The translations under genes and the position numbers were made by a program. DNA of 64,000 nt from Victivallis sp. Marseille-Q1083. Its GTDB lineage: Bacteria > Verrucomicrobiota > Lentisphaeria > Victivallales > Victivallaceae. Of the stretch, positions 2,853 to 37,182 are shown piece by piece (position 1 is the stretch's first letter; every line of letters starts with the position of its first letter). Below the pieces are notes generated by a model, which saw only the letters and a program-made list of their open reading frames with translations, was not told where the DNA came from and did not search any database. The stretch spans positions 434,001-498,000 of the forward strand of contig NZ_CAHJXL010000001.1 of NCBI RefSeq assembly GCF_903645315.1, in the 5' to 3' direction.

Positions 2853-3104
2853 ATGCCGGAACCCGATGAAAATGAAATCAAACGTCTGTTGCTGGAAGTC
2901 GAAATGGCGGAAAAAGACCTGCCGAACGATTACCCGGATTGGGCGCGGGCGCGCCGCTGGCTGCTGTGCGGCGCACTGCCGATGATCGTCATCCTGCTCG
3001 GAATCGGCCTCGCCGGCCTGCTGGCCTGGAACTATCTGCTCTTCATCGGCGGAACGGCAATTCTGCTGTGCGGCGGCCTGGGCGCCTGCTATCCGCAGAA
3101 ATGA
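2853..3104 (+). CDS. Small two-TM membrane protein, unknown function
   Basis: 83 aa. The start is set by AGGAG at 2841-2845, eight bases before ATG 2853; an upstream ATG at 2835 lacks such a site. A charged N-terminal helix (EIKRLLLEVEMAEKDL) is followed by two closely spaced hydrophobic segments at about residues 43-61 and 63-79. Its stop overlaps the ATG of the helicase gene (ATGA at 3101-3104), so it is probably translationally coupled to that gene. I do not recognise the family. The topology suggests a helical hairpin in the inner membrane with the charged tail in the cytoplasm. Confidence 0.7.
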   Translation: MPEPDENEIKRLLLEVEMAEKDLPNDYPDWARARRWLLCGALPMIVILLGIGLAGLLAWNYLLFIGGTAILLCGGLGACYPQK

Positions 3105-6623: not shown

Positions 6624-6638
6624 CGAAAGAACTTCACC

Positions 6639-16017: not shown

Positions 16018-16043
16018 AAGAATTATTTTCCTATTAATTAAAG

Positions 16044-17012: not shown

Positions 17013-17126
17013 AAACATATTCCTTGCGATTTACAAATTTATCAACATATCAAACTAACACTTTATTTTGATTATATCCTCTTAAGCCATCTACTTATAT
17101 TTTTCTCCTGATTTCACTAGAACAAT

Positions 17127-18732
17127 GTGCATTCTGCGAAATACATTAAATTATTTATTTTTAACTATTTACAATGCATTGAAATTTGAAAAATCCTCCA
17201 ACTGAAATTATATTGTAATCTTCTAGCAATCAAAATCATAACTCCAGAAGGAGGAATAAAAACCAATGCAACTATCTTTATTCTGCGATTATCGCGGGTA
17301 CGCCAACTCCAAATACGAGAGCCTGTTTCTTGCGCTGGAAGAATCTCATACTAGTGTCGCTAAGAAGAAAGGTCCTGGTCGTATCGGCTATGGAGATTTG
17401 GCTTACCTCAAAGCATACGTTTACAAGCACGCGGAGGAAATCAAAAGCATTCCGGAGCTCTTGCGCAATCTGCAACGGAATCCGGTGATCTGCGAAATGA
17501 TCGGTTTCCAGTATGATTCGCTGCCGGACTCGTCCCGTTTTTATACATTCCTGAGCAAGACAAAAAACTCCGAAATCCAGGCGATTCATCATGCGGCGGT
17601 TCAGTCGCTGATCGGCGGCGGCGTGGTTTCGCTTGACGTCCTGATCGTCGATTCCAAACCGGTCATGGCCAATACCAAGCACAACAATCCCAAAAATCCG
17701 AGTCGCTCATTGGATAAAGAGGATAAAATCCCCCGCAATCCCAAAGCGACTCTCGGCTATTATTCTTACTTGAAACAGCCATTCGGCACGGGCAAGCAAT
17801 TCAGCTTTTTCTGGGGCTTCCGGACGCACGTATTGGTCTCCGAAGAAGGCGTTCCGCTGGTCGAAATCACCAAGCCGACCAACATCTCCGACGAACAGAT
17901 TGCGCACTCGCTCTTACGCAAACTCAAACGGGTCTACGGACAGAAGAAAGGCCGAGTTTTTATCGCCGATTCCGCCTATGACCACCGCCAATTCTACGAC
18001 TTTATCAAGGACGAAATCAAAGGCCAAGCATGCATCCCAATCAATCCGCGCAACCAGCAAGCGGCCAAACTTCTCGGCGAAAAAGGCTGTCCCATCTGTC
18101 CCGGCGGACTCGAAATGAAATATTCATGCATCACCAAGAGCGAAGGCCGCACCCGCAAGAAATTCCGCTGTCCGATCATCGCCGGAACGCGCCCGGAAAA
18201 AGCCGAATTACCTGGCCAATGCCCTTGCAATCATCAACGATTCTGTACCGGCAGCCGCTATGGCTGTACCGCTTACATCGACGTTACCGATGATGCACGC
18301 GCCCAGGTCCCGCGCCAAAGCGCATGGTACAAAGAGACTTATACCAAACGTACCGGCGTCGAACGCTATTTCTCGCGCCTCGGCTCGCGCGAGGTCGAAC
18401 AGACCACGCATTTCAATTACCGAGCCATCCGCAACCAGATGAGCATTGCACATCTGACGCTCGCGCTCACCGCCGTCGCCGCCGCATTCATTCTCGAACA
18501 GCCGGACAAAATCCGCTGTTACAAATCGTTTGCTGACGCCGCATAGCTTCGCGATAATCTCAAATTTTTCAATCAACCCCGGCGAATTCACATCCGCCTT
18601 AATTCTTCACGCCTTTTTTCAGCGATTTTTTACCCAATTCTGCACCAACTCGTACTGTTTGCTTGTTTTCAAAGCTTTTGCCGGTGGCTCAAACTGCTTC
18701 CTGTTCACTTTTCCTCTATTTCGCTGAATTCA
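17127..18732 (+). mobile_element. DDE-type insertion sequence, copy 1 (IS4/IS1182-like)
   Basis: A 1606-bp element nearly identical to 32718-34323, which defines its ends. The left end (TGCATTCTGCGAAATA at 17128) pairs with the right end as an imperfect inverted repeat; here the right end reads TATTTCGCTGAATTCA and is less well matched than in copy 2. The flanks (AACAAT on the left, TATTCTCATT on the right) show no target duplication, unlike copy 2. It sits between the family B2 gene and a hydrolase gene in the same AT-rich region. Confidence 0.85.
17266..18546 (+). CDS. DDE transposase of IS copy 1
   Basis: 426 aa with AAGGAGG upstream of ATG 17266. An N-terminal helical DNA-binding region (DUF772-like) is followed by a DDE core: first D in LDVLIVDSKPV, second D in VFIADSAYDHRQF, and E in KRTGVERYFSRLG. 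A zinc-ribbon-like insert (CPICPGG ... CPC) lies between the second D and E. It differs from copy 2 at three residues: T/P and T/N in the segment after PLVEI, and A/D in GTRPEK[A/D]ELPG. It appears intact. The mechanism should be cut-and-paste transposition; exact family (IS1182, IS4 or unclassified) is not certain. Confidence 0.85.
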   Translation: MQLSLFCDYRGYANSKYESLFLALEESHTSVAKKKGPGRIGYGDLAYLKAYVYKHAEEIKSIPELLRNLQRNPVICEMIGFQYDSLPDSSRFYTFLSKTKNSEIQAIHHAAVQSLIGGGVVSLDVLIVDSKPVMANTKHNNPKNPSRSLDKEDKIPRNPKATLGYYSYLKQPFGTGKQFSFFWGFRTHVLVSEEGVPLVEITKPTNISDEQIAHSLLRKLKRVYGQKKGRVFIADSAYDHRQFYDFIKDEIKGQACIPINPRNQQAAKLLGEKGCPICPGGLEMKYSCITKSEGRTRKKFRCPIIAGTRPEKAELPGQCPCNHQRFCTGSRYGCTAYIDVTDDARAQVPRQSAWYKETYTKRTGVERYFSRLGSREVEQTTHFNYRAIRNQMSIAHLTLALTAVAAAFILEQPDKIRCYKSFADAA

Positions 18733-18836: not shown

Positions 18837-20312
18837 TTACTTATCGGAACTGGTCTCCTCTCTAGCAACTTCAGCAATAAACGCATTCCAAATATCATCT
18901 CCATCGTATTTTTCATCCATGGCAAATACGGTTGAAGTTATCCCTTCCGGTAAATCCGGCCAATTATGCGAAAACATCATATGCAGCGGAATCAAATCGT
19001 TCTTCCAAGCCGCCGCCAGCGACAAGTGCGGAAACGGGCTGTCAAATTCGGCATCCAACGTGATAATCCGTTTGATGCGCTGATCTGGCTGGCGGAGCAC
19101 TGCTAAGGCAGCCAGTTGCCCTGCCATGCCACTCCCAGCCACATAAATCGGTAAAGCTGCCCATTCCGGTCGTTCCAATACTTGCTTTAACTGCAACTCC
19201 ATTTGTTCTGGATGCTCCAGATAATGTTCATCTACCGGCAAAGAAATTGGAATCGCCCCTGCTTCAGCCAGCCGAAGCAAGCCATCCATACGGGAGCCGA
19301 AGCCAATATGATCCATTCCACCGGCCAGAAGGATCACTCTATTGGCATCTGGCAATGGCGGATAGACCAGCAATTCATCCGAGACGCCTCCTTTCGGCTG
19401 CAGCCAACCATCGGTCACCGTCTGCGGTAAGGTCTGCCAAAGCATCAGAAATTCCGGCGAAGGAAACTCCACTCCCATCTCGCGGCTGCGCATCGCGTCG
19501 ATGATGAATTGTTGAATCAACAGATAGGCGATTTCACCCGGAGCATGATAATTCCGCAATTCCCGGAAATGCGGTGGTGTGATTCCATGCCACACCTCAC
19601 CACCGACCTCCCGCTGCCACCGGACAGCCTCCAGCGTAGGAATCATGCCCGGACACCCCCAAGTGTTCAACGCCAACAGTTTGGACCGGTTCGGTTTCGC
19701 CGGTTTCGCCAAATTAGTCGCGCCGCACCACGCTGCAGCAGCAATCCGCTCCGGCATCGCCGTCGCCATCTGGCCGGCCAGATTGCCGCCGGCAGATTCC
19801 CCGACGACAAAGAAAGGCCGTTTTTCAATTTCGAATTCAGTACAAAGATGATCCTGAACCGCACAAACGACTTCAAACCATTCTCCGCCCAGATAATTGC
19901 CATAGGAATGTCGAAAGCCCTGAGGATTAATCTTGACGAACATACTGAAAACCGTGCAGTTATTTTCAAACCAAAATGCCCCCAACCAACCACGATTGGC
20001 CAAAAAGGTACTACCATCCTCACCGTTAAACGGAGCATAGAACACCATATTGGAAGCAGCTGGAAGCGGTCTTCCCTCCCCGTCAACCGGAATCACATAA
20101 CTTACCTGAGTGGTCGGTGTTTCCGGGAATCCTATCCGTACCTGGAATTCACCGACCAAAAACGGCCGGCCGCTGATCAGCCGGACCTCCCGCTGTTCAC
20201 GACGAGCCCATTTCCACGGTTCGCTCCGCCAGCACCAAACCATTGCAATTCCAATCATTATTATGACCAGAACCACAACGAACGTCCAGCGCCTTCCTTC
20301 TTGTTTTCCCAT
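18837..20312 (-). CDS. Membrane-anchored two-domain alpha/beta hydrolase
   Basis: 491 aa. The N-terminal helix FVVVLVIIMIGIAMVWCW anchors the protein. The first hydrolase domain carries the nucleophile elbow VGESAGGNLAGQ (GxSxG-like) and an upstream VFYAPFNGEDG segment. The second half repeats a hydrolase-like fold (ILLAGGMDHIGFGSRMDGL ... IYVAGSGMAGQLAALAV ... ITLDAEFDSPFP) in which the elbow serine position is glycine, so this half is probably not catalytic. It is a clear paralogue of 34736-36265. Substrate unknown; esterase or peptidase activity is possible. It follows two prepilin-like genes on the same strand. Confidence 0.7.
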   Translation of the reverse strand: MGKQEGRRWTFVVVLVIIMIGIAMVWCWRSEPWKWARREQREVRLISGRPFLVGEFQVRIGFPETPTTQVSYVIPVDGEGRPLPAASNMVFYAPFNGEDGSTFLANRGWLGAFWFENNCTVFSMFVKINPQGFRHSYGNYLGGEWFEVVCAVQDHLCTEFEIEKRPFFVVGESAGGNLAGQMATAMPERIAAAAWCGATNLAKPAKPNRSKLLALNTWGCPGMIPTLEAVRWQREVGGEVWHGITPPHFRELRNYHAPGEIAYLLIQQFIIDAMRSREMGVEFPSPEFLMLWQTLPQTVTDGWLQPKGGVSDELLVYPPLPDANRVILLAGGMDHIGFGSRMDGLLRLAEAGAIPISLPVDEHYLEHPEQMELQLKQVLERPEWAALPIYVAGSGMAGQLAALAVLRQPDQRIKRIITLDAEFDSPFPHLSLAAAWKNDLIPLHMMFSHNWPDLPEGITSTVFAMDEKYDGDDIWNAFIAEVAREETSSDK

Positions 20313-20371: not shown

Positions 20372-21118
20372 TCAATATAGATAAAGATTTCCCTTTTCAT
20401 CCAGCAACGGAGACCAGTAAACATCCATGCGCAGCAAATCCATCCCCTCAACCGATTCAGCATGCCCATCGAACATCGCAACGCCAGCCTGTCCGTCATG
20501 ACGGGCACTGATCGGATAACTGCCGTTATTGCGTACCTGTCCCGGAAATACGCCATGATCGCCGGCCAGGAAAAACGGACTGAACCAAGGCAACTTGGCC
20601 TTCAAACCGGTCTCGGCCGTCACTGAATCGCCGAGATAAACTAATTTGGCTGCGGTACCATACTTGAGGATCTCGGCAGCCTTGTGTGGCCTACTCCATG
20701 GATCCTTCTGCTCACAATAATTACCCAAGTTGCCAAAGGTCGTTTTGTTCATCCCATAACTACCGACCGGTTGCCATTCTGGAGCGGTTCCATTCAACAG
20801 CACATCGCGGCTACCGGTCGAATTAAGGGCAAGTGGACAGCAAAAAGTTTCCGGCGTTACACCGTAATTATCGATCAGTACTGCCCACCAGACCGGTTCC
20901 CGGTTACCGTCGCGCCAACCGGTAGGCGTTAAACACCAGTTGTTGTAATCGCCCTGATAAAGAGTTACGGCCTCAACCATCTTCTTCAAATAAGCCAGAC
21001 ACTGTGTTCCGCCGGCCGATTGCTGCGAACGCCCCATAATTCCCAACAACAATCCGGCCAGTACGGCCAGAATCGCAACCGCTAACAACAGTTCCACCAT
21101 CGTGAATGTTCTTTTCAT
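20372..21118 (-). CDS. Prepilin-type protein, tandem copy 2
   Basis: 248 aa from ATG 21116-21118, with GGGAAA upstream. MKRTFTMVELLLAVAILAVLAGLLLGI is a prepilin-type N-terminus. The body has WCLTPTGWR, a CCPLALN segment, [23 protein letters not shown], and the C-terminal H-x9-DG-like ARHDGQAGVAMFDGHAES. The same blocks occur in the gene directly upstream (21162-21929), so this is a tandem duplication; only 43 bp separate them. The hydrolase gene at 18837-20312 follows 59 bp later. Likely an inner-membrane pseudopilin-like or sensory protein of the DUF1559-like group; function unknown. Confidence 0.8.
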   Translation of the reverse strand: MKRTFTMVELLLAVAILAVLAGLLLGIMGRSQQSAGGTQCLAYLKKMVEAVTLYQGDYNNWCLTPTGWRDGNREPVWWAVLIDNYGVTPETFCCPLALNSTGSRDVLLNGTAPEWQPVGSYGMNKTTFGNLGNYCEQKDPWSRPHKAAEILKYGTAAKLVYLGDSVTAETGLKAKLPWFSPFFLAGDHGVFPGQVRNNGSYPISARHDGQAGVAMFDGHAESVEGMDLLRMDVYWSPLLDEKGNLYLY

Positions 21119-21161
21119 ATTTCCCACTCTTTCTCGTTCATTACAGTTACCGGATTACGAC

Positions 21162-21929
21162 TCAATGTTCTCCAATTTTCGTATACCAATAGAGCTGCCC
21201 ACGCTCATTCAGCAACGGCGACCAGTAAACTTCCGTTTTCAACAACTCCGGCAACTCAAGTGCCGCAGCATGTCCGTCCAGCATGGCGACATTGGCCTGC
21301 TGACCATGCCGTAAATAAACCGGATAACTGCCGTCCTCTTTCAAATGATCCGGAAACACGCCATCATCCGCTGACAGATAAATCGGATGAAACCACGGCA
21401 ACCCGGCCGCACGGCCCTCTTCATAGGTCACCGAATCGCCAAGATAGATCAAATTCGAACTGTTTCCCATGCCGTAGACCACACTGGCCTTGCTGGGCTT
21501 GTCCCACGGGTCGCGATTTTTCTCCATATAGCCACCCAAGTTGCCGAAGGTTGTCTTATTCATCCCATAACTGCCCTGCGCCAGCCAATCCGGCCCGACA
21601 CCGTGCAACAATGTTTCACGGTCATCCGCATCATTCAGCGCCAGCGGACAACAGAAAATTTCCGCCGAGCAACCGTAATCGTCAATTAACACTTCCCACC
21701 AATACGGTTCCCGTTTTTCCCATCGCCAACCGGTCGGCGTCAGGCACCAGTCATCATTATCACTCTGATAGAGAATGGCAACGGTGATCATCTGTTTTAA
21801 GTTATTAATGCAACGAACATTCTGGGCTGCCAACTTTGCCCGCCACAACGCCGGCAACAGCAATCCCGATAAAATTGCAATAATGGAAATGACTACGAGC
21901 AATTCCAGTAATGTGAACTTCTGTCTCAC
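21162..21929 (-). CDS. Prepilin-type protein, tandem copy 1
   Basis: 255 aa. I chose GTG 21927-21929 because GGGAGG stands just before it and it gives the short leader MRQK in front of [24 protein letters not shown]; the longer reading from 21956 has no such site. Shared with its tandem copy are [39 protein letters not shown] and the C-terminal [15 protein letters not shown]. Two cysteines (CCPLALN) are conserved in both. The pair seems to be transcribed together with the hydrolase gene downstream. Confidence 0.8.
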
Positions 21930-22113
21930 CTTCCCCTCCCAACTGTTTAATAACATAATATTAATCTCAAACTAATCAATAAGTAAATCATTATAAAATT
22001 TATGGAATTAAAAACAGTCTGTTACCCTAACAGAATCCACATCTATATAGTACTTTTTACTTTAATTAAAATAGTATCACATAATAACTCAATACAATTC
22101 ATTATTATATCAT

Positions 22114-22604: not shown

Positions 22605-23483
22605 TTATCGCTGTTTCCGATACTTCAAGAAAACAACACCGGCAGCCGCCACGACAGCCACACCGAAGGCAAACCACATGCCATAATTCAACAGCCAATT
22701 CATCCAATTCCGACCGGGCAATCCACCGGTTGAACGGGAACCGGAAGAAGCCGCGGCAGAATGTTGCTCGACCAACTCTTGAAAGTTGCGGAAAAACAAC
22801 ACATGGGCGGTAATCTTTTCCGGTGTTTCAAATAATTTGCTGTCCGGCTTTTCCCGGTTTTCAATCGAACCGATTTCCCGGTTGAAGATCAATTCGCCGC
22901 GGGAATTGTAGTGCTTCCGGGCATAAATCTGTTTGGAATCCCGGTCGATCAGAAAAGTTCTGGTATAGGCATAGCGCGAGAAAAAAGCGTCTTTGGGGTC
23001 ACTGAGCCGATTGGCCGGATAGCCGGTAACGGAAGAGAGAAAAATCGCCTCCGGCAACGTCATCGTCACTTCATAACATGGTTTCTGGCAATAATCAGCC
23101 TCCCGCACCGAAAAGGAACTTCCCTCAATTTCTTTGGCCGGCACTTCCAGATACAGGGAATCCCAATACCACAACGGCGAAGCCTCATCGATGCGGGCGA
23201 CAACCGCCGGGGTGATACCGTATTGGCCGGTATCATTCTGCAGATAAGTCTCGCCGGAGTCCAAATCCAATCGGCGGCATACGGAACCGTCGCGGTTGAC
23301 CAGATAAGCAAATTTCCCCTTTACTCTCCGGCCAGCCGGTTCCGAATATTCCACCCCCGCCGCATAGCTGATTTTTTTACCAAACTGCAGCGCCTCAATC
23401 AAAATTTCCTTCTCCGGCAGCTCATCGGCACAAGCTATCGCACAAAATAATAGACCAATCAAAAATACTACTATTTTTCTCAT
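22605..23483 (-). CDS. Family A2: secreted protein with C-terminal TM anchor
   Basis: 292 aa. The signal peptide is FLIGLLFCAIACA, and the C-terminal helix MWFAFGVAVVAAAGVVFL ends in KYRKQR. It shares with family A1 the blocks ETYLQNDTGQYG (A1: ETYLQNKTGQYG), YCQKPCYEVTM, QIYARKHYNSRGEL and SKLFETPEKI; these are long enough to prove common ancestry. The middle domain has the strand-rich, LolA-like look of A1. Followed by family C2 and preceded by family B3 on the same strand. Probably exposed outside the inner membrane and anchored by its tail. Confidence 0.65.
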   Translation of the reverse strand: MRKIVVFLIGLLFCAIACADELPEKEILIEALQFGKKISYAAGVEYSEPAGRRVKGKFAYLVNRDGSVCRRLDLDSGETYLQNDTGQYGITPAVVARIDEASPLWYWDSLYLEVPAKEIEGSSFSVREADYCQKPCYEVTMTLPEAIFLSSVTGYPANRLSDPKDAFFSRYAYTRTFLIDRDSKQIYARKHYNSRGELIFNREIGSIENREKPDSKLFETPEKITAHVLFFRNFQELVEQHSAAASSGSRSTGGLPGRNWMNWLLNYGMWFAFGVAVVAAAGVVFLKYRKQR

Positions 23484-23524: not shown

Positions 23525-23998
23525 TTATATCCCAGCATGAGAAGTACACGATTCCGAGTACCGAGGATGTGTATAATCTATATAATATTTACTATCAATC
23601 AAAGATTGGGAAACAATTGCTCCTGTTGTACTATCTTTGTCTCGACGATAAGTACACTTTCTCCTCAGATACAAATGCGCTTCTCGACGAGAATAGCCAT
23701 TTCCTGACCCATCATGTGGTGGTGAAGAGAACCCTAAAGTATCTAATAAAAATCTCTGCACATATCCTGTTGTACCAGATGGCAAACCTAAATCACTGGC
23801 TGCATCTGCATTTACACCTACTCGTAAATAAATAATGTCTGATATGGCCTCATCTCCACATCGAGCCGTTCGACTGTTACTGTCGCTTGCAATAGTATAG
23901 ATTTCTGTTTCTGTCACAGTAACAATGATTCCAAATGCAGACCACGAATAAAACATCATGCCAATAATACCAGCGACAACAAGAATTCTCGACATCAT
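23525..23998 (-). CDS. Family B3: small secreted protein with PHDGSGNGY and terminal CxxH
   Basis: 157 aa from ATG 23996-23998, with AAAGGAAAA upstream. Signal peptide: ILVVAGIIGMMFYSWSAFG. It is the most divergent B member. It keeps the early RCGDEA, the DLGLPSG segment, SPPHDGSGNGY and the terminal SCTSHAGI, where CTSH aligns with CTNH (B2) and CGRH (B1). An extra cysteine (RRKCTYRR) is present. It sits between family A3 (upstream) and A2 (downstream). A sigma-70-type promoter lies about 360 bp upstream of its start. Confidence 0.55.
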   Translation of the reverse strand: MMSRILVVAGIIGMMFYSWSAFGIIVTVTETEIYTIASDSNSRTARCGDEAISDIIYLRVGVNADAASDLGLPSGTTGYVQRFLLDTLGFSSPPHDGSGNGYSRREAHLYLRRKCTYRRDKDSTTGAIVSQSLIDSKYYIDYTHPRYSESCTSHAGI

Positions 23999-24043
23999 AT
24001 TTTCCTTTGCCTTTCTATTATTACCGAGAACTTTTAATACCAT

Positions 24044-25435: not shown

Positions 25436-25663
25436 CTATTCATCCGCTTTTTGACAAGTATAGCAATTCTGACATGTATGGCAATTATTACATTTCTGAC
25501 AAGTATGACAAACTTGGCATGTATGACAAACCTCACAGTGAGTGGGATCATCACATTTAGAGCAATCACCTCTTCGTGGCACAATTTCACTGCTATTTTC
25601 CACCTTCTCCCCCTTACTGTTCCCCAGCAACCAAAAATGGCTCAAAACTCCCACACCAACCAA
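25436..25663 (-). CDS. Cysteine-every-third-residue peptide, candidate RiPP precursor or metal-binding tail
   Basis: 75 aa if started at TTG 25661-25663. From residue 34 to 70 every third residue is Cys (34, 37, then 43 to 70 without a break), with only position 40 (Pro) breaking the register: 12 Cys, units such as CEV, CHT, CQV, CHT, CQK, CNN, CHT, CQN, CYT. The tail is QKADE. The frame is open a further 19 codons upstream to a stop at 25721-25723; these add FFIIGA to the hydrophobic run ALVGVGVLSHFWLLG, giving a full transmembrane helix, but contain no ATG/GTG/TTG, so the true start is uncertain. The Cys part should face the periplasm or be cleaved. A radical-SAM/SPASM gene lies upstream on the same strand beyond an IS110 element. 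Metal or Fe-S binding is the main alternative. Confidence 0.6.
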   Translation of the reverse strand: MVGVGVLSHFWLLGNSKGEKVENSSEIVPRRGDCSKCDDPTHCEVCHTCQVCHTCQKCNNCHTCQNCYTCQKADE

Positions 25664-25730
25664 TGCTCCTATTATGAAAAAGTCAAGAGACTGACTCTTT
25701 CTTTGTTTGTATTTTTCCTGTTATTTGTTG

Positions 25731-25943
25731 TTATTTGCGAAACTCCGCCTCAAAGGGCAGAGGACTTCCATCTGTAAATATTTTTACAGTCTTCCAATTA
25801 AAGATTATCTTCTGGTTGCGGTTCGGGCAAAAATCGGACACTATTATTGACGACAACTCTTGAATGAATTCAAGGTTTCGCATTTTGCTGTTCCACTCTG
25901 AAATAGCACTCGCAAACTGTTTTACATGATCCCCTCGGATCAA
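25731..25943 (-). pseudogene. Possible gene remnant between IS110 and the Cys-repeat gene
   Basis: An open frame of 70 codons from TTG 25941-25943, open upstream to a stop at 25980-25982. It has an ordinary, non-repetitive amino-acid composition (for example KMRNLEFIQELSSIIVSDFCPNRNQKIIFNWKTVKIF) but no good ribosome-binding site or recognised domain. Its position right beside the IS110 element suggests it is the 3' end of a gene cut by the insertion. If so, it may be a third component that once lay between the radical-SAM gene and the peptide gene. It could also be noncoding. Confidence 0.25.
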
Positions 25944-26020
25944 GGAGCAAACGAACGACGTGCTAAAAAGAACCGAATTTCACAGTCACAGCAAACAGAA
26001 TCTCCGAAACTACTTAAATC

Positions 26021-27070
26021 TTATTCACTTGCGGATACCATGTAATCACGTTCCTGGAGCCACACGGCCCGAAGCGCATAGAGCAATTTCTTGCCGATGA
26101 TCGAAATAGCCCGTTGTGGACTGGCCCCCTTATGAAGCAAGGCTCCATATCTGGCCCGAATCTCCAGATTGTACGACACCGACCTCCACGCCGACTGGAT
26201 CAGGATGGCATGCAGTTGCTTTTTCTTGCGATTCCCGGCGGATTTGACGGCCTCGTGTTCGCCGCTGCCGACCAACCTCGGTGCGAATCCCACATACGAG
26301 CTCAGCGAATCCTTGTCTTCAAAGCGCAGCAAGTCCCACAATTCGGCCTGCAGCATCACCGCCGTATGAAACCCGACGCCAGGTATACTCTGTAGATGCT
26401 TCTGTACTTTGTCGCGCTTCAAACGCTTCAGACACCGCCGTTCATCGCGGATCACATGCAGTTTCTCTTCTCTGAGAAAACGCAGTTCCCGCAACATGCT
26501 CTGCAAGGCATAATCGTAACGCTTTGCCGCGTCCGCATACATCATTTTCAAAGAACTTCCAGACCAACTTCCAAACTTCAACCCCATGAAATTCAGGTGT
26601 CCTTTGATCCGGTTTTTGACCCTGGTTATATTGCCGGTCAGTTTCGTTTCACGTCTGACCAGGTTTCTCAATTCCAAATTATCTTCAGGCGGAATATAGA
26701 TCCCTTCCAATGTCCGGTTCTCCAGTTCCCGCGCCAATTTTCGGCTGTCCACCGCATCGTTCTTGCGGTCGCGCTCCTTGCCGCTGGTCGGCACGTCCGC
26801 CGGGTTGATTACGATATTCTCAATCCCGAGCTCACACAATCGCCGGTGCGCCCAGAATCCGCTGAATCCTGCCTCGTAAACGCTCCGGTACTCGGCGCCC
26901 GGATAGTTCATCTTCAGATACTTCGCCAACATCTCAGGGCTCGGATTCATGCTGAACTTGTCCAGTTCACGGTGGCAATGCCGCAAATTCACCACCCAAC
27001 TTTCCTTGTGCACATCAATTCCGACAAATATCACTTGACCTTCGAACGATACCGTGCTACATTTTCTCAT
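26021..27070 (-). CDS. IS110-family (DEDD) transposase
   Basis: 349 aa from ATG 27068-27070, which follows AAGGAG at nine bases; a longer frame from 27109 lacks this site. The RuvC-like N-terminal domain starts VIFVGIDVHKESWVVNL (first Asp) and continues with SVYEAGFSGFWAHRRL (Glu) and DRKNDAVDSRKLA (Asp pair), the DEDD set. The C-terminal transposase_20 domain has LQSIPGVGFHTAVMLQAEL and FAPRLVGSGEHEAVKSAGNRKKKQ with the conserved serine region. It looks intact. IS110 enzymes recombine DNA guided by an element-encoded RNA. Confidence 0.9.
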   Translation of the reverse strand: MRKCSTVSFEGQVIFVGIDVHKESWVVNLRHCHRELDKFSMNPSPEMLAKYLKMNYPGAEYRSVYEAGFSGFWAHRRLCELGIENIVINPADVPTSGKERDRKNDAVDSRKLARELENRTLEGIYIPPEDNLELRNLVRRETKLTGNITRVKNRIKGHLNFMGLKFGSWSGSSLKMMYADAAKRYDYALQSMLRELRFLREEKLHVIRDERRCLKRLKRDKVQKHLQSIPGVGFHTAVMLQAELWDLLRFEDKDSLSSYVGFAPRLVGSGEHEAVKSAGNRKKKQLHAILIQSAWRSVSYNLEIRARYGALLHKGASPQRAISIIGKKLLYALRAVWLQERDYMVSASE

Positions 27071-27353
27071 GGCTGATGTCTCCTTTTGTGATGTTTTAAC
27101 TGTCTGCATGACTCTGTCCGTCAGAGCCGATGTCTTATTTTACAGTATCACATCTTTGAGAATCAGCCTCTTTCATTTCATAACCGCTACCTCATTCCTT
27201 TTTACCATAGCAACTGTTTTACTAATAAAAGCACGACGGGATATTCCATTTTCTTTAATATCGTTCGTCGGTATTTTTTGATTGTTGTCTTGCATTTCTT
27301 TTTTCCTTTGTTTAGCCGTCAAAAAAGTACGGTCTCGAATTAGTATTTTTACA
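26021..27353 (-). mobile_element. IS110-family element, ends not resolved
   Basis: The transposase defines the element. IS110-family members lack long terminal inverted repeats and usually make no or very short target duplications, so the ends cannot be fixed from one copy. The 283 bp upstream of the transposase start contain no gene; this is where IS110-group elements carry their guide (bridge) RNA. Insertion falls between the radical-SAM gene and the Cys-repeat peptide gene. The right limit given is the last base before the radical-SAM stop and is an outer bound. Confidence 0.6.
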
Positions 27354-28808
27354 CTACGCTTGAGAGTCCGATTTCCAAGCCCAAAAATATACGCGATGTT
27401 CTATCGTATCTTTTTGACTATCACAATGACTACCGTTTTGATAGAAATCCCCATCCTTCATCATAATATCAGCCGGACAAGGCCCTTGACAAATCGCTGC
27501 AGCCCAACATTTCTCACAATTTTTGATAGCTTTCCGATACTTTTTCCAAAAATCTTTATATATATTTAGACTAGGCAAATCGTTAATATTCCCCAAACGC
27601 CAGTTTTTCATACCACAAAAATGATGACAAGGATACAGATCTCCCCGCGGAGAAATATACAAACATCCTTTTGCCGCTCCACATTTTACCGGGAAAATAC
27701 TGGGAACCAAATTATCTATCCCTCTATCAAAACGGTATGGATCATAAAACAACGCTTTTCCTGCCGCAATATCTTCCAGCATCGATGGGATCAACTCTTC
27801 ATTCTGAGTAGCAAAATCTCTATAATCTTCGTCGGTAAAATCACTCGGCGTGGGGTGAAAAATCGGATTAGAAGCTGGACCTAAGAAACAATCTGAAAAC
27901 CCGAACTCTTTGAAAAATACAATCAATTCTTTGATATTAGGGACCGGGTGTACCATTGTCGCTCGTGCAGTTGTATGCTCCTGATGTTGAATAATATGTT
28001 TTGCCCCCCTAGAAGCCATTGCATATGATCCACGCCCATCTTTGGTTAGACATTGGCCATCGTGAATGTGTTGTGGTCCATCAAAACTAACCAGTACTTT
28101 TACCTTATGCTCAGTCAAATACGTCGCAAATTCCTCATCGACCAATGTAACATTACTTGTCGTGCTGAATCGGACTGCTTTATCATACTCTTTCGCCAAC
28201 TGTTCGCTGTATTCAATCGCGGAACGTAGTACTGTTTTATTAAGAAATGGTTCTCCTCCAAAAAAACAAATTCTAACTTCATTTTCTGTATTTATCTGGA
28301 AGAGCCACTTGATCGCACGACAGGCGATCTCTTCAGTCATGAATCCTTCGAAAGGCATGTCTGCATCTCGGGACGTATTGCAATAGCAATAGGAACATGC
28401 TAAATTACAAGTATCTGTCAAACCTAATAGAAACTCCGAAGTACCTACGGAAAAATACCTATCTAATATTTTATCCAAACAATCATCTTGCAGAGAATAA
28501 TTTGTTTGTTCAAACAACCCATGTTCAGCTAGAAGGGCAATTTCAGCAGCCGCATTATAAATTTCGTCAACAGGAAATAAATTTTCCTTACTTAATTGTT
28601 CAACAGCGATATCCAGCGAAACAGAAGAAGAAAGAAGCAAAAGTTGATATGTTACTTCATCAATACGGTAAAAACGACAAGCTGTCGTATCGAAAACAAA
28701 ATATTGTTCCAAGACTTTGAACACATGGTAAGGTGGAGGGAAATTTTCTTGAGTAACAGACCCACAAATCGTTTTATATTTCTCAGGTATCCTCAATATG
28801 GCAGACAT
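27354..28808 (-). CDS. Radical-SAM/SPASM peptide-maturase-like enzyme with RRE/PqqD-like N-terminus
   Basis: 484 aa. Residues ~25-105 look like a PqqD/RRE-type winged-helix domain (YHVFKVLEQYFVFDTTACRFYRID, helices to LAEHGLFE), used to bind RiPP leader peptides. The radical-SAM domain has CNLACSYC (C134, C138, C141; CxxxCxxC) and GGEP at 184-187. A C-terminal SPASM region supplies further cysteines (376, 382, 394, 398, 431, 434, 440, 444, 462) for auxiliary Fe-S clusters. The layout is that of peptide-modifying enzymes making thioether or C-C crosslinks (sactipeptide, ranthipeptide or QhpD-like). The nearest candidate substrate is the Cys-repeat peptide ~1.7 kb downstream. A good promoter lies 140 bp upstream. 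Confidence 0.85.
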   Translation of the reverse strand: MSAILRIPEKYKTICGSVTQENFPPPYHVFKVLEQYFVFDTTACRFYRIDEVTYQLLLLSSSVSLDIAVEQLSKENLFPVDEIYNAAAEIALLAEHGLFEQTNYSLQDDCLDKILDRYFSVGTSEFLLGLTDTCNLACSYCYCNTSRDADMPFEGFMTEEIACRAIKWLFQINTENEVRICFFGGEPFLNKTVLRSAIEYSEQLAKEYDKAVRFSTTSNVTLVDEEFATYLTEHKVKVLVSFDGPQHIHDGQCLTKDGRGSYAMASRGAKHIIQHQEHTTARATMVHPVPNIKELIVFFKEFGFSDCFLGPASNPIFHPTPSDFTDEDYRDFATQNEELIPSMLEDIAAGKALFYDPYRFDRGIDNLVPSIFPVKCGAAKGCLYISPRGDLYPCHHFCGMKNWRLGNINDLPSLNIYKDFWKKYRKAIKNCEKCWAAAICQGPCPADIMMKDGDFYQNGSHCDSQKDTIEHRVYFWAWKSDSQA

Positions 28809-29609: not shown

Positions 29610-31271
29610 TCACGGTTTGGTAATGGACTTGCTCTTGGCCGGCTGCTCCGGCTTGTCCGGGACGGCATCCCATTCACACTCCCCGACCACCACCAATTCC
29701 GAATGCTTGATCGAAGTCGATTCGGTTGAAAAGAGATAACCGAGGTACGGAATGTCTTTCAGCCACGGCAAACCGCCGGACGATTTCACCGTCTCCTGTT
29801 TTTTCAGGCCGCCGATGACGAAACTGTTCTTACCGTGCGGCAGACTGACCGTCTGGGTGACGACGCTGTTGCTGGAAATGCGCGGTTTGCCATTCGATTC
29901 GAAGCCGATCAGGCTGGAATTGCTCAACGCGACGGTGAAATTGGTTTCGTCGAGGTTGACCGAAGCATTTTCAATTTTCAGCGAAAAACCGAAGCCGTCG
30001 AATTTTTCGACGATCTGCTGGTTGCCTTTGCCGACCGGGACGTCGTTCGGATTGATGTCCTTGCCGACCAGCGACGACAGGATCTCGTACGGCCCCACCC
30101 CCAGATCGGGATCGGTCCGGGCATCCGGCGCCGGCTGGGAAACATCCATATAGAACACCTGGGTTTTCCGTTCCAGCGCCGCCGGGGTGTTGTTGCGGAT
30201 GCACAATTCACCGGAGTAGGTCACCTTCGCGTTGCCTTTGCTGGTCAGGAAGTCGATATAACGGGTATTCCACTTCGGATTGAAGTTGTAGAAACTGGTC
30301 CGTTCCGAACCGGTCTGGCCCATCGCTCCGCCATAGACTGCCGACCAGTTGTCGCGGTAACGGCCGCCGACCGAAAAGAGATCGACCCCCTGGTTGTTCT
30401 TCCAGGCCTGGAAATCGAGGCCGATCTTGTCGTCGTTCTCGCTGTAAATTTCATAAACGGTAATTTTCAGCTTGACCTGCGGAATCGGCACGTCATATTC
30501 GGCGAGCATTTTGGCGATGTTGTACTGCGAATAATTCGTCACGTCGAACACCAGCCAGTTCAGCAGCGGATCATAGGCGACCAGGTCCTGGCCCTGCCAG
30601 ATCTCGGTGACGTCGGTGATGTTCATGCCGACGTTTTCAATCAGCGGCATCAAATTGCGCGCCGGCACAAACTTCGGAATGTAGAAAAATGTCTGCGTAC
30701 CGTAATTGGCGCCCATCTGCGGTTTGTCGAGAAATTCGACCAGCGAGTCGAAACCCATGCCGCCGTCGTGGTCCTTGAACCGGTACTCCTCCGCGCTGAT
30801 GATCAACAGTCCGGTACCGTCGACGTATTTCAAACATTCCACCGCCGTATTGCTGCCAAGCTGGAGTTCCGGATTATAGCCCGGCTGGGCGGTCGCCGGC
30901 GTCGTCAGTTCGGCGCTGCTGACCGTCGCGGTATACGGCATCGTCGCCGTATTGCCCGGATAAATCTGCTGCATGCTGGTGTTGCCGACCCGTTTGGCCT
31001 GCACCATCTGGCGCAGGTAATCGCGGAATTCGTAAGCATCGACATGCTTCAGCAGGTAGGTCTTGGTCACCACCCGCGGATCGTTGTTGTCGCGGATGAA
31101 ATGGACGACCCTGGTGTCCTCCTTGACCGGCACCAGCAACTGGGCTTCCACCCGGGTGCTGTCGTAACCGCCGGTGTTGTTGAAATTGGAATCCCGCGGC
31201 ACGCCGGGAATTTCGGCCGCCTGGCAGAGCGTCAGGCACGAAAACAGGGAAACGATAACTGGATATTTCAT
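29610..31271 (-). CDS. Secretin-like protein (GspD family), second of a tandem pair
   Basis: 553 aa with AAGGAG before ATG 31269-31271. Signal peptide: VIVSLFSCLTLCQA. N-type repeats are visible (KTYLLKHVDAYEFRDYLRQMV; TFFYIPKFVPARNLMPLIENVGM ... WLVFDVTNYSQYNIAKMLAEYDVPIPQVKLKITVYEI). The secretin core follows, with KVTYSGELCIRNNTPA, SVVTQTVSLPHGKNSFVIGGLKKQETVKSSGGLPWLKDIPYLGYLFS, which is the typical G-x-P-x-L-x-x-I-P-x-L-G-x-L-F end. The final ~35 residues (GECEWDAVPDKPEQ...) may be a pilotin-binding tail. It lies 12 bp after the preceding secretin-like gene. Confidence 0.85.
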   Translation of the reverse strand: MKYPVIVSLFSCLTLCQAAEIPGVPRDSNFNNTGGYDSTRVEAQLLVPVKEDTRVVHFIRDNNDPRVVTKTYLLKHVDAYEFRDYLRQMVQAKRVGNTSMQQIYPGNTATMPYTATVSSAELTTPATAQPGYNPELQLGSNTAVECLKYVDGTGLLIISAEEYRFKDHDGGMGFDSLVEFLDKPQMGANYGTQTFFYIPKFVPARNLMPLIENVGMNITDVTEIWQGQDLVAYDPLLNWLVFDVTNYSQYNIAKMLAEYDVPIPQVKLKITVYEIYSENDDKIGLDFQAWKNNQGVDLFSVGGRYRDNWSAVYGGAMGQTGSERTSFYNFNPKWNTRYIDFLTSKGNAKVTYSGELCIRNNTPAALERKTQVFYMDVSQPAPDARTDPDLGVGPYEILSSLVGKDINPNDVPVGKGNQQIVEKFDGFGFSLKIENASVNLDETNFTVALSNSSLIGFESNGKPRISSNSVVTQTVSLPHGKNSFVIGGLKKQETVKSSGGLPWLKDIPYLGYLFSTESTSIKHSELVVVGECEWDAVPDKPEQPAKSKSITKP

Positions 31272-31283
31272 GACTGCAACTCC

Positions 31284-32690
31284 TTATTTCAGCTTCTGCA
31301 AACGACCGATTTCCTCGCTCTGGATCCCGGTGTTGAGCATTTCCGCCGTGACGGTCAGATAAACGTGGGTTTTCTCTCTGCTGGTGGTCGTCGTGCTGAA
31401 CAGATATTTCAGAATCGGAATGTCGGAAAGGAACGGCACCCCGATGGTCTGCTCGGTTTCGTCCTCCTTGTCCCAGGCGGCCAGCACTTTTTCCTTATTC
31501 AGTTCAATATTGGAATTGCCCTGGATCTGGCTGGTCTCGATCAGTTCAGCGCCGTAATTGTTGCGCTCCACGACGTTGGCGGTCTGCACGTCGTAACCGA
31601 AATAAAGCGTGCCGGGGATGGCCGCGTACTGGCCCGGCCGGTAGTTGGGAATTTCAAAATCCAACTGCGGCCCGCTGTGCAGGCAGACGATCGGCTTGAT
31701 CACTTTCAGATAAATCTGGCTGAGGCCCTGCTGCTGGGAAATCGCACTGAGAACGACACTGGTCTGGTCGTTGTTGCTCTTGACGATATTCTGCAACTGC
31801 GGATTGAACAGCAGCTCATAGGTTTTGCTGTCGGAATTCGACACCGTCAAACTGGCGGTGTTCTTGATGTCCGCCTTGCCGTCCTGCTGCAGAATCCGGA
31901 TGAAGCTGGCGTCGAACTGCGGCGCAAAAAAGAAACCGCCGAGCGGTCCGGAGGCCGCCTGTATCGCCGCGGAACCGCCAGACGAAATGCTGAACACATC
32001 CCAGCCGACCTGAAAGAGATTCAGCCCCGGTCCATTTTTCCAGGCCAGATATTCGATCCCCATGTCCCGCAGCGTGCTTTCACGCACTTCGTAAACATTG
32101 AAGACCAGGTTGATCTGCGGCGCCGGCCGGTCCAGCCAGCCGAGGAACTGATACATGAACTCGGTATTCGTCGTGTTGTCCTTCCAGTAGATCTGGTTCG
32201 AATTCTGATCGTAACCGTAAACCGAACCGTAAGGACCTTCGTTGATGAAAGCGTTGACGATAATATTGATCAAATCCTGTCCGGAACGGTATTTCGGCCG
32301 GTAGACCGCCCGGGTGATGCCGGTGCCTTTGATGACGTCGCCGGGTACTTTGCCGTCGACTTCGATATTGCGGTCGACCTTGGCGATGAAATCATCGACA
32401 TACGGCATCATGCCGACCGGACAGGTGACGGTCAGAATCTGTTCGTTGTTGTTGCCGTATTCGATACAGTTGACCACCGAATTCATATTGTAGCGTTTGA
32501 CAATACTCATCACCCAGGGGGTGATATCGTTCGCCTGCACGTACTTGAGCACATAAATCTTGGAAACCATATAATCCTGCGCGTCGTCTTGAACAAAACG
32601 CAATTTCTGGGTTCCCGGCTCCTCGCCGTGCAGGACGAAGGCGGCCAGCAGCAAGGCGCACGCCTGTCCCATCCATGTTTTGATCCTCAT
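31284..32690 (-). CDS. Secretin-like protein, first of a tandem pair
   Basis: 468 aa from ATG 32688-32690, preceded by GGAGGAG; ATG 32702 is in frame but sits inside that site. Signal peptide: GQACALLLAAFVLHG. It is a paralogue of the next gene: KIYVLKYVQANDITPWVMSIVKRYN, LDRPAPQINLVFNVYEVRESTLRDMGIEYLAWKNGPGLNLFQVG (compare IGLDFQAWKNNQGVDLFSVGG) and the end IGVPFLSDIPILKYLFSTTTTSREKTHVYLTVTAEML. Two paralogous secretin-like proteins in one operon suggest a hetero-oligomeric ring or one structural and one accessory subunit. IS copy 2 is inserted only ~28 bp upstream of the start and must have displaced the native promoter. Confidence 0.85.
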   Translation of the reverse strand: MRIKTWMGQACALLLAAFVLHGEEPGTQKLRFVQDDAQDYMVSKIYVLKYVQANDITPWVMSIVKRYNMNSVVNCIEYGNNNEQILTVTCPVGMMPYVDDFIAKVDRNIEVDGKVPGDVIKGTGITRAVYRPKYRSGQDLINIIVNAFINEGPYGSVYGYDQNSNQIYWKDNTTNTEFMYQFLGWLDRPAPQINLVFNVYEVRESTLRDMGIEYLAWKNGPGLNLFQVGWDVFSISSGGSAAIQAASGPLGGFFFAPQFDASFIRILQQDGKADIKNTASLTVSNSDSKTYELLFNPQLQNIVKSNNDQTSVVLSAISQQQGLSQIYLKVIKPIVCLHSGPQLDFEIPNYRPGQYAAIPGTLYFGYDVQTANVVERNNYGAELIETSQIQGNSNIELNKEKVLAAWDKEDETEQTIGVPFLSDIPILKYLFSTTTTSREKTHVYLTVTAEMLNTGIQSEEIGRLQKLK

Positions 32691-32705
32691 AATCTCCTCC
32701 ATAAG

Positions 32706-32717: not shown

Positions 32718-34323
32718 GTGCATTCTGCGAAATACATTAAATTATTTATTTTTAACTATTTACAATGCATTGAAATTTGAAAAATCCTCCAACTGAAATT
32801 ATATTGTAATCTTCTAGCAATCAAAATCATAACTCCAGAAGGAGGAATAAAAACCAATGCAACTATCTTTATTCTGCGATTATCGCGGGTACGCCAACTC
32901 CAAATACGAGAGCCTGTTTCTTGCGCTGGAAGAATCTCATACTAGTGTCGCTAAGAAGAAAGGTCCTGGTCGTATCGGCTATGGAGATTTGGCTTACCTC
33001 AAAGCATACGTTTACAAGCACGCGGAGGAAATCAAAAGCATTCCGGAGCTCTTGCGCAATCTGCAACGGAATCCGGTGATCTGCGAAATGATCGGTTTCC
33101 AGTATGATTCGCTGCCGGACTCGTCCCGTTTTTATACATTCCTGAGCAAGACAAAAAACTCCGAAATCCAGGCGATTCATCATGCGGCGGTTCAGTCGCT
33201 GATCGGCGGCGGCGTGGTTTCGCTTGACGTCCTGATCGTCGATTCCAAACCGGTCATGGCCAATACCAAGCACAACAATCCCAAAAATCCGAGTCGCTCA
33301 TTGGATAAAGAGGATAAAATCCCCCGCAATCCCAAAGCGACTCTCGGCTATTATTCTTACTTGAAACAGCCATTCGGCACGGGCAAGCAATTCAGCTTTT
33401 TCTGGGGCTTCCGGACGCACGTATTGGTCTCCGAAGAAGGCGTTCCGCTGGTCGAAATCCCCAAGCCGAACAACATCTCCGACGAACAGATTGCGCACTC
33501 GCTCTTACGCAAACTCAAACGGGTCTACGGACAGAAGAAAGGCCGAGTTTTTATCGCCGATTCCGCCTATGACCACCGCCAATTCTACGACTTTATCAAG
33601 GACGAAATCAAAGGCCAAGCATGCATCCCAATCAATCCGCGCAACCAGCAAGCGGCCAAACTTCTCGGCGAAAAAGGCTGTCCCATCTGTCCCGGCGGAC
33701 TCGAAATGAAATATTCATGCATCACCAAGAGCGAAGGCCGCACCCGCAAGAAATTCCGCTGTCCGATCATCGCCGGAACGCGACCGGAAAAAGACGAATT
33801 ACCTGGCCAATGCCCTTGCAATCATCAACGATTCTGTACCGGCAGCCGCTATGGCTGTACCGCTTACATCGACGTTACCGATGATGCACGCGCCCAGGTC
33901 CCGCGCCAAAGCGCATGGTACAAAGAGACTTATACCAAACGTACCGGCGTCGAACGCTATTTCTCGCGCCTCGGCTCGCGCGAGGTCGAACAGACCACGC
34001 ATTTCAATTACCGAGCCATCCGCAACCAGATGAGCATTGCACATCTGACGCTCGCGCTCACCGCCGTCGCCGCCGCATTCATTCTCGAACAGCCGGACAA
34101 AATCCGCTGTTACAAATCGTTTGCTGACGCCGCATAGCTTCGCGATAATCTCAAATTTTTCAATCAACCCCGGCGAATTCACATCCGCCTTAATTCTTCA
34201 CGCCTTTTTTCAGCGATTTTTTACCCAATTCTGCACCAACTCGTACTGTTTGCTTGTTTTCAAAGCTTTTGCCGGTGGCTCAAACTGCTTCCTGTTCACT
34301 TTTCCTCTATTTCGCAGAACTCA
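32718..34323 (+). mobile_element. DDE-type insertion sequence, copy 2, with 12-bp target duplication
   Basis: 1606 bp. The terminal inverted repeats are TGCATTCTGCGAAATA (left) and TGAGTTCTGCGAAATA (right, read inward), 14 of 16 bases equal. Flanked by TTGGTTCTACTA on both sides. It is inserted in the upstream region of the secretin pair and transcribed away from it. The transposase reads plus while the secretin genes read minus, so any secretin transcription must come from the element's end or from a fortuitous promoter. Same orientation as copy 1, 14 kb away. Confidence 0.9.
32857..34137 (+). CDS. DDE transposase of IS copy 2
   Basis: 426 aa, the same protein as in copy 1 apart from three residues (here PLVEIPKPNNIS and GTRPEKDELPG). 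The DDE residues (LDVLIVDSK, FIADSAYD, GVERYFSR) and the cysteine-bearing insert are intact, so it is presumably active. AAGGAGG precedes ATG 32857. The near identity of the two copies implies recent movement or gene conversion. Confidence 0.85.
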   Translation: MQLSLFCDYRGYANSKYESLFLALEESHTSVAKKKGPGRIGYGDLAYLKAYVYKHAEEIKSIPELLRNLQRNPVICEMIGFQYDSLPDSSRFYTFLSKTKNSEIQAIHHAAVQSLIGGGVVSLDVLIVDSKPVMANTKHNNPKNPSRSLDKEDKIPRNPKATLGYYSYLKQPFGTGKQFSFFWGFRTHVLVSEEGVPLVEIPKPNNISDEQIAHSLLRKLKRVYGQKKGRVFIADSAYDHRQFYDFIKDEIKGQACIPINPRNQQAAKLLGEKGCPICPGGLEMKYSCITKSEGRTRKKFRCPIIAGTRPEKDELPGQCPCNHQRFCTGSRYGCTAYIDVTDDARAQVPRQSAWYKETYTKRTGVERYFSRLGSREVEQTTHFNYRAIRNQMSIAHLTLALTAVAAAFILEQPDKIRCYKSFADAA

Positions 34324-34735: not shown

Positions 34736-36265
34736 TCACTCCGCCACCGCCCGCCGGACCGCCTGCCGCCACAGTTGGCCGAAGCCGGCATTCTTTTCCG
34801 GTTCGAGATATTCCCAGGCCGTACAGGGATCCGGCTGCTCCGGCAAGGCAGAGGTCGAACACAACATCAGCAGCGGAATATCGCTTTGCGCCCGAAAGGC
34901 TTGAATGGACCATTGCGGAAAGGGCGATTCGTAGTCGGTATCCAGCAGAACAATCCGGCGGATCCGGTCGCTGCCGTTGTTCAAAGCGGCAATTGCCGTC
35001 CGCTGGCCGGTCAAATCCATGCCGATCACGATCAACGGCAAATCGCGCCATCGTTCCTCCTGCAAAATTTTTTCCAGCATTTCCGGCAAAAAATTCTCCG
35101 CCGTCAACTTCTCCTCGTCGGCCGCCACGACAACCGGCACAACCTTCCGGGCCGCCAGCTCCGCCAACCCGTCCATAAAAACGGCGGGATCCGGAAATTC
35201 GGCGGAAAATACCAGCAACGCCAGACGATCCGCCTCCGGCGAAGCCGGATAAGCCACCCAGCCGGCTTCCGGCGTTTTACCGCCGCACACCGCATCGGTC
35301 ACCTCCCGGGGCAACCCGTCCCATTGCGCCGCAAACTCTTCCGACGGCAACCAACAGGTTTGGCCGTCGATCTGGCGGCGTACCGGCCAATGCGCCACCG
35401 CCGGCAGCACCCCGCCGTTGGCGTCACGCAAGGCAACCACGCCGCGGATGAAAGAACAGATCAGCTCGTACGCCCGGCGACCGGTGGAGTGATGGCTGAT
35501 GACGCCCGGTCCCAGATCGGGCGGCGTCAGCGCCCGCAGCACCTGGCGGCCCTGCTGCCGAAGCGCCGTACCCATTGCATCGGAAGCCTCGCTCCCCGGA
35601 CAGCCCCAGGTGCTCAACGCCAACAGCGCGCCGCGGCCCGGTCCGGCCTCCAGCCGGTAACGGGTGCCGCCGCACCAGGCCGCCGCATCGACCCGATCCG
35701 GTTCGGTGACGGCCATCTGCTGCCCCAGGCTGCCGCCGGCGGATTCGCCGACCACCAGCAGCGGCCGTTTTTCCAGTCCGTACTTCCGCACCAGCTCATC
35801 CTGAATCCGCCAGATGACCTCGTACCAGCCGCACTCCGGATAAATATAATACCGCGTCACATCATCGGTCACTTTCAGATTCGTCCTGGCCAGCAGCGAG
35901 AAAACCGAATAGCCCTGTTCCAGCCAGAGATTTTCCAGCCATTTGGCATTTTCAAAAAACAGATGCCCCCAATCCCCGTTGAACGGCGCGTAAAAAATCA
36001 GATTCGATGCCGACGGCAGCGGTTTGCCCTCCCGATCGACCGGAATGACGTAACTGACCGTCGTGTCCCGGTTCAACGGCAGATTGACGCGCATCGTAAA
36101 ACTGCCGCGCTGTAAAAAAACGGTCTGTCCGTGATGTTCCTTCTCCAACACCATCTCCTGCCAGTCGAAGATCTGCCGGGCCTGCCACCACCACGCCGCA
36201 ATCCCGGCTGCCGCCAGCAGCAGAACCAGACCCGATCCCCAAATTTTCTTTGCCGACAAATTCAT
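34736..36265 (-). CDS. Membrane-anchored two-domain alpha/beta hydrolase (paralogue)
   Basis: 509 aa. N-terminal anchor: IWGSGLVLLLAAAGIAAWWW. It parallels 18837-20312 block for block: TTVSYVIPVDREGKPLPSASNLIFYAPFNGDWG, EKRPLLVVGESAGGSLGQQMAV (nucleophile Ser in GESAGG), LLALSTWGCPGSEAS. The second hydrolase-like half, DRLALLVFSAEF ... LPLIVIGMDLTGQRTAIAAL ... IVLLDTDYESPFP, has Asp where the nucleophile would be. ATG 36263-36265 overlaps the upstream stop (ATGA), so it is coupled to the 304-aa hydrolase. Likely acts outside the membrane on an unknown ester or glycan. Confidence 0.7.
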   Translation of the reverse strand: MNLSAKKIWGSGLVLLLAAAGIAAWWWQARQIFDWQEMVLEKEHHGQTVFLQRGSFTMRVNLPLNRDTTVSYVIPVDREGKPLPSASNLIFYAPFNGDWGHLFFENAKWLENLWLEQGYSVFSLLARTNLKVTDDVTRYYIYPECGWYEVIWRIQDELVRKYGLEKRPLLVVGESAGGSLGQQMAVTEPDRVDAAAWCGGTRYRLEAGPGRGALLALSTWGCPGSEASDAMGTALRQQGRQVLRALTPPDLGPGVISHHSTGRRAYELICSFIRGVVALRDANGGVLPAVAHWPVRRQIDGQTCWLPSEEFAAQWDGLPREVTDAVCGGKTPEAGWVAYPASPEADRLALLVFSAEFPDPAVFMDGLAELAARKVVPVVVAADEEKLTAENFLPEMLEKILQEERWRDLPLIVIGMDLTGQRTAIAALNNGSDRIRRIVLLDTDYESPFPQWSIQAFRAQSDIPLLMLCSTSALPEQPDPCTAWEYLEPEKNAGFGQLWRQAVRRAVAE

Positions 36266-37176: not shown

Positions 37177-37182
37177 TCCGTT

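Follow-up and report, generated by a model that had tools for sequence, protein, structure and literature searches.

Among the described radical S-adenosylmethionine (radical SAM) maturases, QhpD acts on a small Cys-rich protein, QhpC, which is exported after crosslinking (PMC7876137; this report and those below are cited from excerpts). Its links, Cys7-Glu16, Cys27-Asp33, and Cys41-Asp49, span X8, X5, and X7 (PMC8172795) and form before protein export (PMC7876137). PapB, the radical SAM/SPASM enzyme of freyrasin, accepts C-Xn-D sequences with n = 0-6, while the reversed D-X3-C peptide gave no product (PMC9413430). SCIFF precursors are found in Clostridia (PMC8172795), and in the CXXX-repeat system Cys residues recur with a period of four beside a radical SAM/SPASM enzyme. 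Here, we analyzed a 64,000-nucleotide stretch of Victivallis sp. Marseille-Q1083 (contig NZ_CAHJXL010000001.1, positions 434,001 to 498,000; hereafter the window), which carries a radical SAM/SPASM maturase gene and, close by, the coding sequence of a Cys-rich peptide. We found that the latter is the second half of a precursor gene with a twin-arginine translocation (Tat) signal, split by an insertion sequence (IS). With moderate confidence, we read the locus as the remnant of a two-gene system, in which a cytoplasmic maturase would crosslink the Tat-signal precursor through thioethers before Tat export.

Results

The genes lie on the minus strand in the order maturase, short ATG frame (from 27295), IS110-family transposase, Cys peptide frame, and the secreted-protein gene A3 (Table 1). 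The transposase matched NF033542 with 157.3 bits (cut-off 140), both of its Pfam domains scored above their cut-offs, and the IS110 stretch had 11 further DNA matches in the window's genome, six of them full-length. The short frame upstream of the element reads MQDNNQKIPTNDIKENGISRRAFIS, and the frame downstream resumes as (A)LVGVGVLSHFWLLGNSKGEKVEN, followed by the Cys core; the two share a register if the element measures 1,554 bases, a length that its ends permit but do not fix. On visual comparison, the end of the signal in the 3' half (GVGVLSHFWLLG) is similar to the signal end in one of the intact precursors (GLGVFSHFTLLG). The position of the IS110 element between the halves, together with the comparison of the ends of its copies, indicates that the window gene is a Tat-signal precursor split by insertion. 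The original prediction had overlooked the element and taken the Cys peptide for a complete short gene with an N-terminal transmembrane helix. We found that the TTG 'start' of this open reading frame (ORF) falls within the hydrophobic stretch, so that the supposed helix is the second half of the twin-arginine signal; a free-standing, membrane-anchored peptide was thus rejected, as the ORF is half a gene. The A3 gene does follow it directly, as described. Judging from the near-identity of the copies, the insertion looks recent, and because it separates leader from Cys core, the system in this strain is probably broken or off. The IS end also places AGGAG near TTG/GTG codons of the peptide frame (25654-25670), from which a truncated peptide lacking the Tat motif might be translated.

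To compare this arrangement with relatives, we surveyed 18 genomes in which the maturase family occurs (numbered G; their loci L): the window's, G004, G119, G286, G429, and 13 of f39, the family of G351, which together hold 19 precursors. The results showed that the Cys-rich precursor adjoins the maturase gene in 16 of the 18 (the 13 of f39, G119, G004, and G286), and in G429 a single gene lies between them. With a 90-aa precursor as query, 11 of 345 genomes in the class of G351 were matched, ten of them clearly; all ten carry the maturase, and these ten are close kin rather than ten independent events. The eleventh match (G131, E 9e-5, with a stop) was taken as chance, and three maturase genomes, G519, G538, and G572, have precursors too divergent for this query. 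The pairing of the enzyme with a Cys-rich secreted precursor, originally proposed from proximity, thus held in the relatives, as did genome co-occurrence within this one class. Five precursors scanned against NCBIfam and four against Pfam belonged to no family there. Tat-signal Cys-rich precursors were also sought beside weaker radical SAM relatives (L003, L004, and L006-L010, mostly with 1.5 kb of flank), and what the scan returned looked like enzyme pieces or arbitrary frames. At L047 (5880-9660) and L143, the leaders of the two precursors of one genome are nearly identical and their cores differ; the same contig also bears a partial copy of the maturase gene (91% over its end).

The window maturase scored 43.5 bits against PF04055 (Radical_SAM, cut-off 29.5) and 27.5 bits against PF13186 (SPASM, cut-off 21.5). 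Its CxxxCxxC motif and the nine Cys of its C-terminal region agree with these parts of the original description of the 484-aa enzyme, and C134, C138, C141, and seven C-terminal Cys were invariant across eight aligned members (the window's and seven relatives). The closest NCBIfam models were those of the PapB, nif11, SCIFF, and QhpD maturases, all under their cut-offs: PapB NF047865 scored best (233.2 bits, cut-off 340), SCIFF TIGR03974 gave 185.2 (cut-off 425), and QhpD TIGR03906 gave 169 (cut-off 453). All eight family members scanned matched PapB, QhpD, nif11, SCIFF, and related models. The CXXX-repeat maturase, to which the enzyme had first been compared, was rejected as its identity at 68 bits against a TIGR04115 cut-off of 350. 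That system shares with the window a regular, short Cys spacing beside a radical SAM/SPASM enzyme, and differs in its period of four rather than three and in the Tat-like signal found here. The nearest solved structure by sequence was CteB (5wgg), whose profile match spans nearly the whole length. As to the putative leader-binding, PqqD-like (RRE) fold at the N-terminus, full-length models match the maturase from residue 26-28, and CteB 5wgg from its residue 5. A short Cys-rich precursor is also common to the SCIFF/CteB system and the present one, and SCIFF precursors are not known to bear a Tat signal.

In the tree, the maturase clade formed one side of a supported branch (100/98 with nine rows, and 95/92 once the long row L145 was added). 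A first scan of genome contigs with the window enzyme alone gave no match, and an alignment-based scan gave one close relative among the best 80 of 538 matches, L047 (41%), from a Kiritimatiellae metagenome-assembled genome; L046 is the same sequence, and the two were counted as one genome, G519. The maturase was present in 2 of 137 genomes of the window's order (its own counted), 4 of 387 across the phylum, 3 of 145 in the family of G119, 13 of 114 in f39, and 13 of 345 in the class of G351, counts from samples that overlap, include the query's own genome, and differ in queries and thresholds. The maturase family is therefore described here as rare. We searched the open-licence literature for radical SAM together with a twin-arginine or Tat signal and a ribosomally synthesized and post-translationally modified peptide (RiPP), thioether, or Cys-rich precursor and found nothing; radical SAM maturases with Tat-signal Cys-rich precursors are apparently a rare, undescribed group. 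The maturase gene of L011 has an apparent frameshift at a T run in its N-terminal part (near 10597-10870), which may be an assembly error.

The precursors of the relatives showed a regular placing of Asp relative to Cys. In the small f39 precursors (n = 12), the following Asp stands at C-X4-8-D for 46 of 48 Cys, and ten of the precursors share the spacing 6, 7, 8, 7, which resembles the QhpD link spans. The long precursors show D-x-C instead (29 of 31 Cys in L029, 28 of 29 in L046, and 26 of 29 in L047; 83 of 89 in total), and that of L032 has D-x-x-C at 10 of 10 Cys; for both patterns p was 0.000 in 2000 shuffles each. Asp eight residues after Cys was also in excess in L029, L046, and L047 (13, 14, and 13, where shuffles gave about 5), with no such excess in L032. 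In L011, all four core Cys have an acidic residue within X0-X8. C-X3-D, the motif expected of PapB precursors, occurs at two places for these four Cys and at two for the 12 of the window core, near both ends. The arrangement of Cys upstream and Asp downstream, like the radical SAM and SPASM domains, is shared with the PapB system, which differs in that the precursors here carry Tat-like signals and that f39 spacing is mostly X4-X8 rather than X3. From the QhpD and PapB links and the spacing in the precursors, a link from Cys to a following Asp would be the likeliest chemistry.

An alternative is that the Cys core binds metal or haem, as a metallothionein-like peptide or through c-type haem at CxxCH, and that the maturase has little or no action on it. 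The window core does contain three CxxCH motifs and the L011 peptide one CIACH, most Cys of the window core have no acidic partner, and the bufferins, which are modified by a multinuclear non-haem iron-dependent oxidative enzyme (MNIO), include exported Cys-rich peptides that bind copper (PMC12452194). We nevertheless consider this unlikely, given the Cys-Asp spacing of the other precursors examined and a maturase that is their immediate neighbour in nearly all genomes surveyed.

The favoured reading, a crosslinked precursor that leaves by Tat, draws on the leaders. RRxF stands before the hydrophobic stretch in 15 of the 19 precursors, namely ten in f39 (MTTRRKF...), the two of L047, those of G286 and G429, and that of the window (SRRAF), where the motif lies in the 5' half of the gene and the hydrophobic stretch in the 3' half. 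The precursors of L044 and L045 have RK in place of RR, and that of L011 has a hydrophobic signal without RR, RK, or RG. A background scan of 79 distant-maturase loci (L048-L126) for RRxF, a hydrophobic stretch, and at least four Cys returned one frame, of low complexity. The Tat route carries folded cargo. TatC scored 165.8 bits in the window's genome (cut-off 132.7) and was over the cut-off in 8 of 9 system genomes tested, including seven whose precursor has RR or RK; as a base rate, 75 of 100 genomes gave a match and 68 were over the cut-off. Among the nine, TatC was absent in G004, whose precursor alone has none of RR, RK, and RG, and G021, of the same genus, gave no TatC match either. Loss of TatC alongside loss of the motif in one lineage is a hint, not proof.

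The leaders would also fit a ranthipeptide-like system with Sec export or membrane anchoring of the peptide, the RR motif being incidental. The signal of L011 and the RG of L029 would agree with this, and Sec signals are described for the other group of signal-peptide RiPPs, the bufferins (PMC12452194). The bufferins and other MNIO-modified RiPPs with signal peptides share with the system proposed here Cys-rich precursors that bear an export signal and have to be modified before export, and differ in their MNIO enzyme class, Sec signals, and thiooxazole chemistry (PMC12452194). Against Sec or anchoring stand the frequency of RRxF or RK (17 of 19 in all), its correct place before the hydrophobic stretch, its near absence from the background loci, and the coincidence that the only tested system genome without TatC is the one whose precursor lost the motif; we hold this alternative to be improbable.

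We then examined the regularity of the window core. Its 12 Cys occupy a single register of three (spacings 3,6,3,3,3,3,3,3,3,3,3); the strict period of three first reported is interrupted at one skipped place, which leaves an unbroken run of 10. In 60 simulated windows of the same dinucleotide content, the longest Cxx run was 4. An 18-base tandem repeat of 2.3 copies covers part of the core, suggesting that part of the run grew by duplication. The Cxx register, proposed at first as a hallmark of the system, was met solely in the window's peptide among the precursors; the relatives show C-X4-8-D, D-x-C, or D-x-x-C. Among the fetched loci, other long Cxx runs occurred at three places, L045 (overlapping L142 and L146), L128, and L129, and can be read as antisense shadows of HPE, GPT, and LSD repeats. 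When 148 genomes (the window's and relatives) were searched with the Cxx ORF, its own gene and two matches were returned, in L128 and L129, which appear to be shadows of collagen-like and LSD repeats. We took the window's Cys frame as real since it is the frame of the Tat signal; the shadow runs do not lie in frames that open with such a signal. That the ORF is a functionless shadow or degraded repeat beside an unrelated maturase is thus very doubtful: such shadows exist elsewhere, the gene is interrupted and its search gave only shadow-like matches besides itself, but the core is open without stops, occupies the position of the relatives' precursors, and is in frame with a signal end resembling those of the intact L046/L047 precursors.

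Gene neighbourhood

The features of the locus and its surroundings are listed in Table 1.

Table 1. Features of the maturase locus and its surroundings in the window.
Feature	Position in the window	Strand	Basis or remark
Alpha/beta-hydrolase gene	18837-20312	-	25% identical to one in L011, E 2e-21
Two pseudopilin-like genes	20372-21956	-	Downstream of the maturase
A3, secreted, 299 aa, C-terminal hydrophobic helix	24473-25372	-	Directly 3' of the Cys peptide frame
Cys peptide ORF, 75 aa	25436-25663	-	TTG 'start'
Precursor gene, 3' half: rest of the signal's hydrophobic stretch, spacer, 12-Cys core	25436-25666	-	
IS110-family element	~25,667-27,219	-	Ends +/- ~2 bases, set by comparing copies
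IS110-family transposase	26021-27109	-	NCBIfam and Pfam above cut-offs
Precursor gene, 5' half: twin-arginine leader SRRAF, cut past codon 25	27221-27295	-	Same position and motif in relatives' precursors
Radical SAM/SPASM peptide maturase, 484 aa	27354-28808	-	Intact ORF; NCBIfam and Pfam scans
Two secretin-domain genes in tandem	29610-32702	-	Above Pfam cut-off; just upstream of the maturase
Two hydrolase-like genes and a Wzy_C (O-antigen-ligase-like) gene	34736-38670	-	

Wzy_C genes lie near the maturase in L029, L011, and the window, above the cut-off in each, and that of the window is 32% identical to that of L011 (E 5e-59). The hydrolase-like window gene at 36262-37176 is 40% identical to one in L029 (E 5e-65). 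In L029, a secreted gene with a weak, sub-cut-off RHS match lies just before the maturase, with look-alikes, judged by eye, in L030 and other loci. The wider neighbours (hydrolases, pseudopilins, and Wzy_C) may belong to the system. No dehydrogenase genes, which the QhpD context would include, were noticed at the window locus, where none were specifically searched for.

A3 had no Pfam or NCBIfam match, and an impression that it is LolA-like was unsupported, the search for a solved relative giving a best E of 0.34. The gene at its place in L011 is weakly similar in one comparison (19% over 118 aa, E 3e-5). Two more A3-like genes in the window (14509-15438 and 22605-23483) are 19-22% identical to A3. 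Each of the two comes after small secreted proteins (15523-16068, 16524-17018, and 23525-24043) that share a PHNGTGNG-like motif, and A3 may have a general role in this region as the partner of such proteins. A 426-aa gene occurs in two near-identical copies on the plus strand (17266-18546 and 32857-34137), the second of which scores as a DDE transposase.

Discussion

We propose that the maturase would bind the precursor leader through its N-terminal domain and join the sulphurs of Cys to carbons in the side chains of nearby Asp, giving thioethers like those made by PapB and QhpD. Made compact by these links, the peptide would then exit by Tat to act either in the periplasm or at the cell surface. 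We infer that the links are thioethers and that modification precedes export, as well as the final place and role. QhpC resembles this scheme in being crosslinked first, and differs in leaving through an ATP-binding cassette exporter after cytoplasmic leader cleavage, not through Tat.

Several observations weigh against this reading. Concerning the enzyme, the window maturase stays under the curated cut-off of the NCBIfam models (best 25 of 71 families); the second maturase copy in its genome (L002/L012, at 8668-9654 of L012), which shares about 42% identity, is incomplete and has transposase genes around it, with no precursor seen in the 19 kb examined; and the maturase frame of G429 contains two TAG stops. 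Concerning the chemistry, just 5 of the 12 window-core Cys have an acidic residue within X0-X8 downstream, so Cys-Asp links cannot account for the Cxx core, which would have a different acceptor, be modified in part, or play some other role. Recognition or metal binding, rather than a crosslink, could also explain the fixed D-x-C spacing. Concerning export, the L029 precursor has RG, not RR, though its genome has TatC, which runs against a strict RR-TatC rule. Neither the five precursors scanned against NCBIfam nor the four against Pfam matched a Tat-signal model, the one row that these scans gave being below its cut-off, and the window precursor halves gave no Tat-signal match in NCBIfam or Pfam scans. 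A looser scan of L047-L126 gave 29 frames, of which only that of L076 was taken for a real Tat-like Cys-rich protein: a methylamine-dehydrogenase small subunit (2562-3107; 185.6 bits, cut-off 196.85) with RRSLL and 14 Cys, about 3 kb from a true QhpD-type enzyme (6001-7029; 560.3 bits, over the cut-off). Tat-like signals near such enzymes are thus not wholly confined to this clade.

Tentatively, and stopping just short of calling it probable, we suggest that, in bacteria of the Verrucomicrobiota type, these precursors form an envelope-peptide family, crosslinked by a radical SAM enzyme in the cytoplasm and exported folded by Tat, with thioethers replacing disulphides; within this family, the Cxx core would represent a branch whose acceptor chemistry differs. 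Because Tat takes folded cargo, a Tat signal would offer a simple answer to the problem of premature export of unmodified signal-peptide precursors. For the bufferins, which use Sec, this problem is discussed as unsettled in the excerpted source (PMC12452194). If the proposed system is real, thioethers would give the secreted proteins of anaerobes redox-proof crosslinks.

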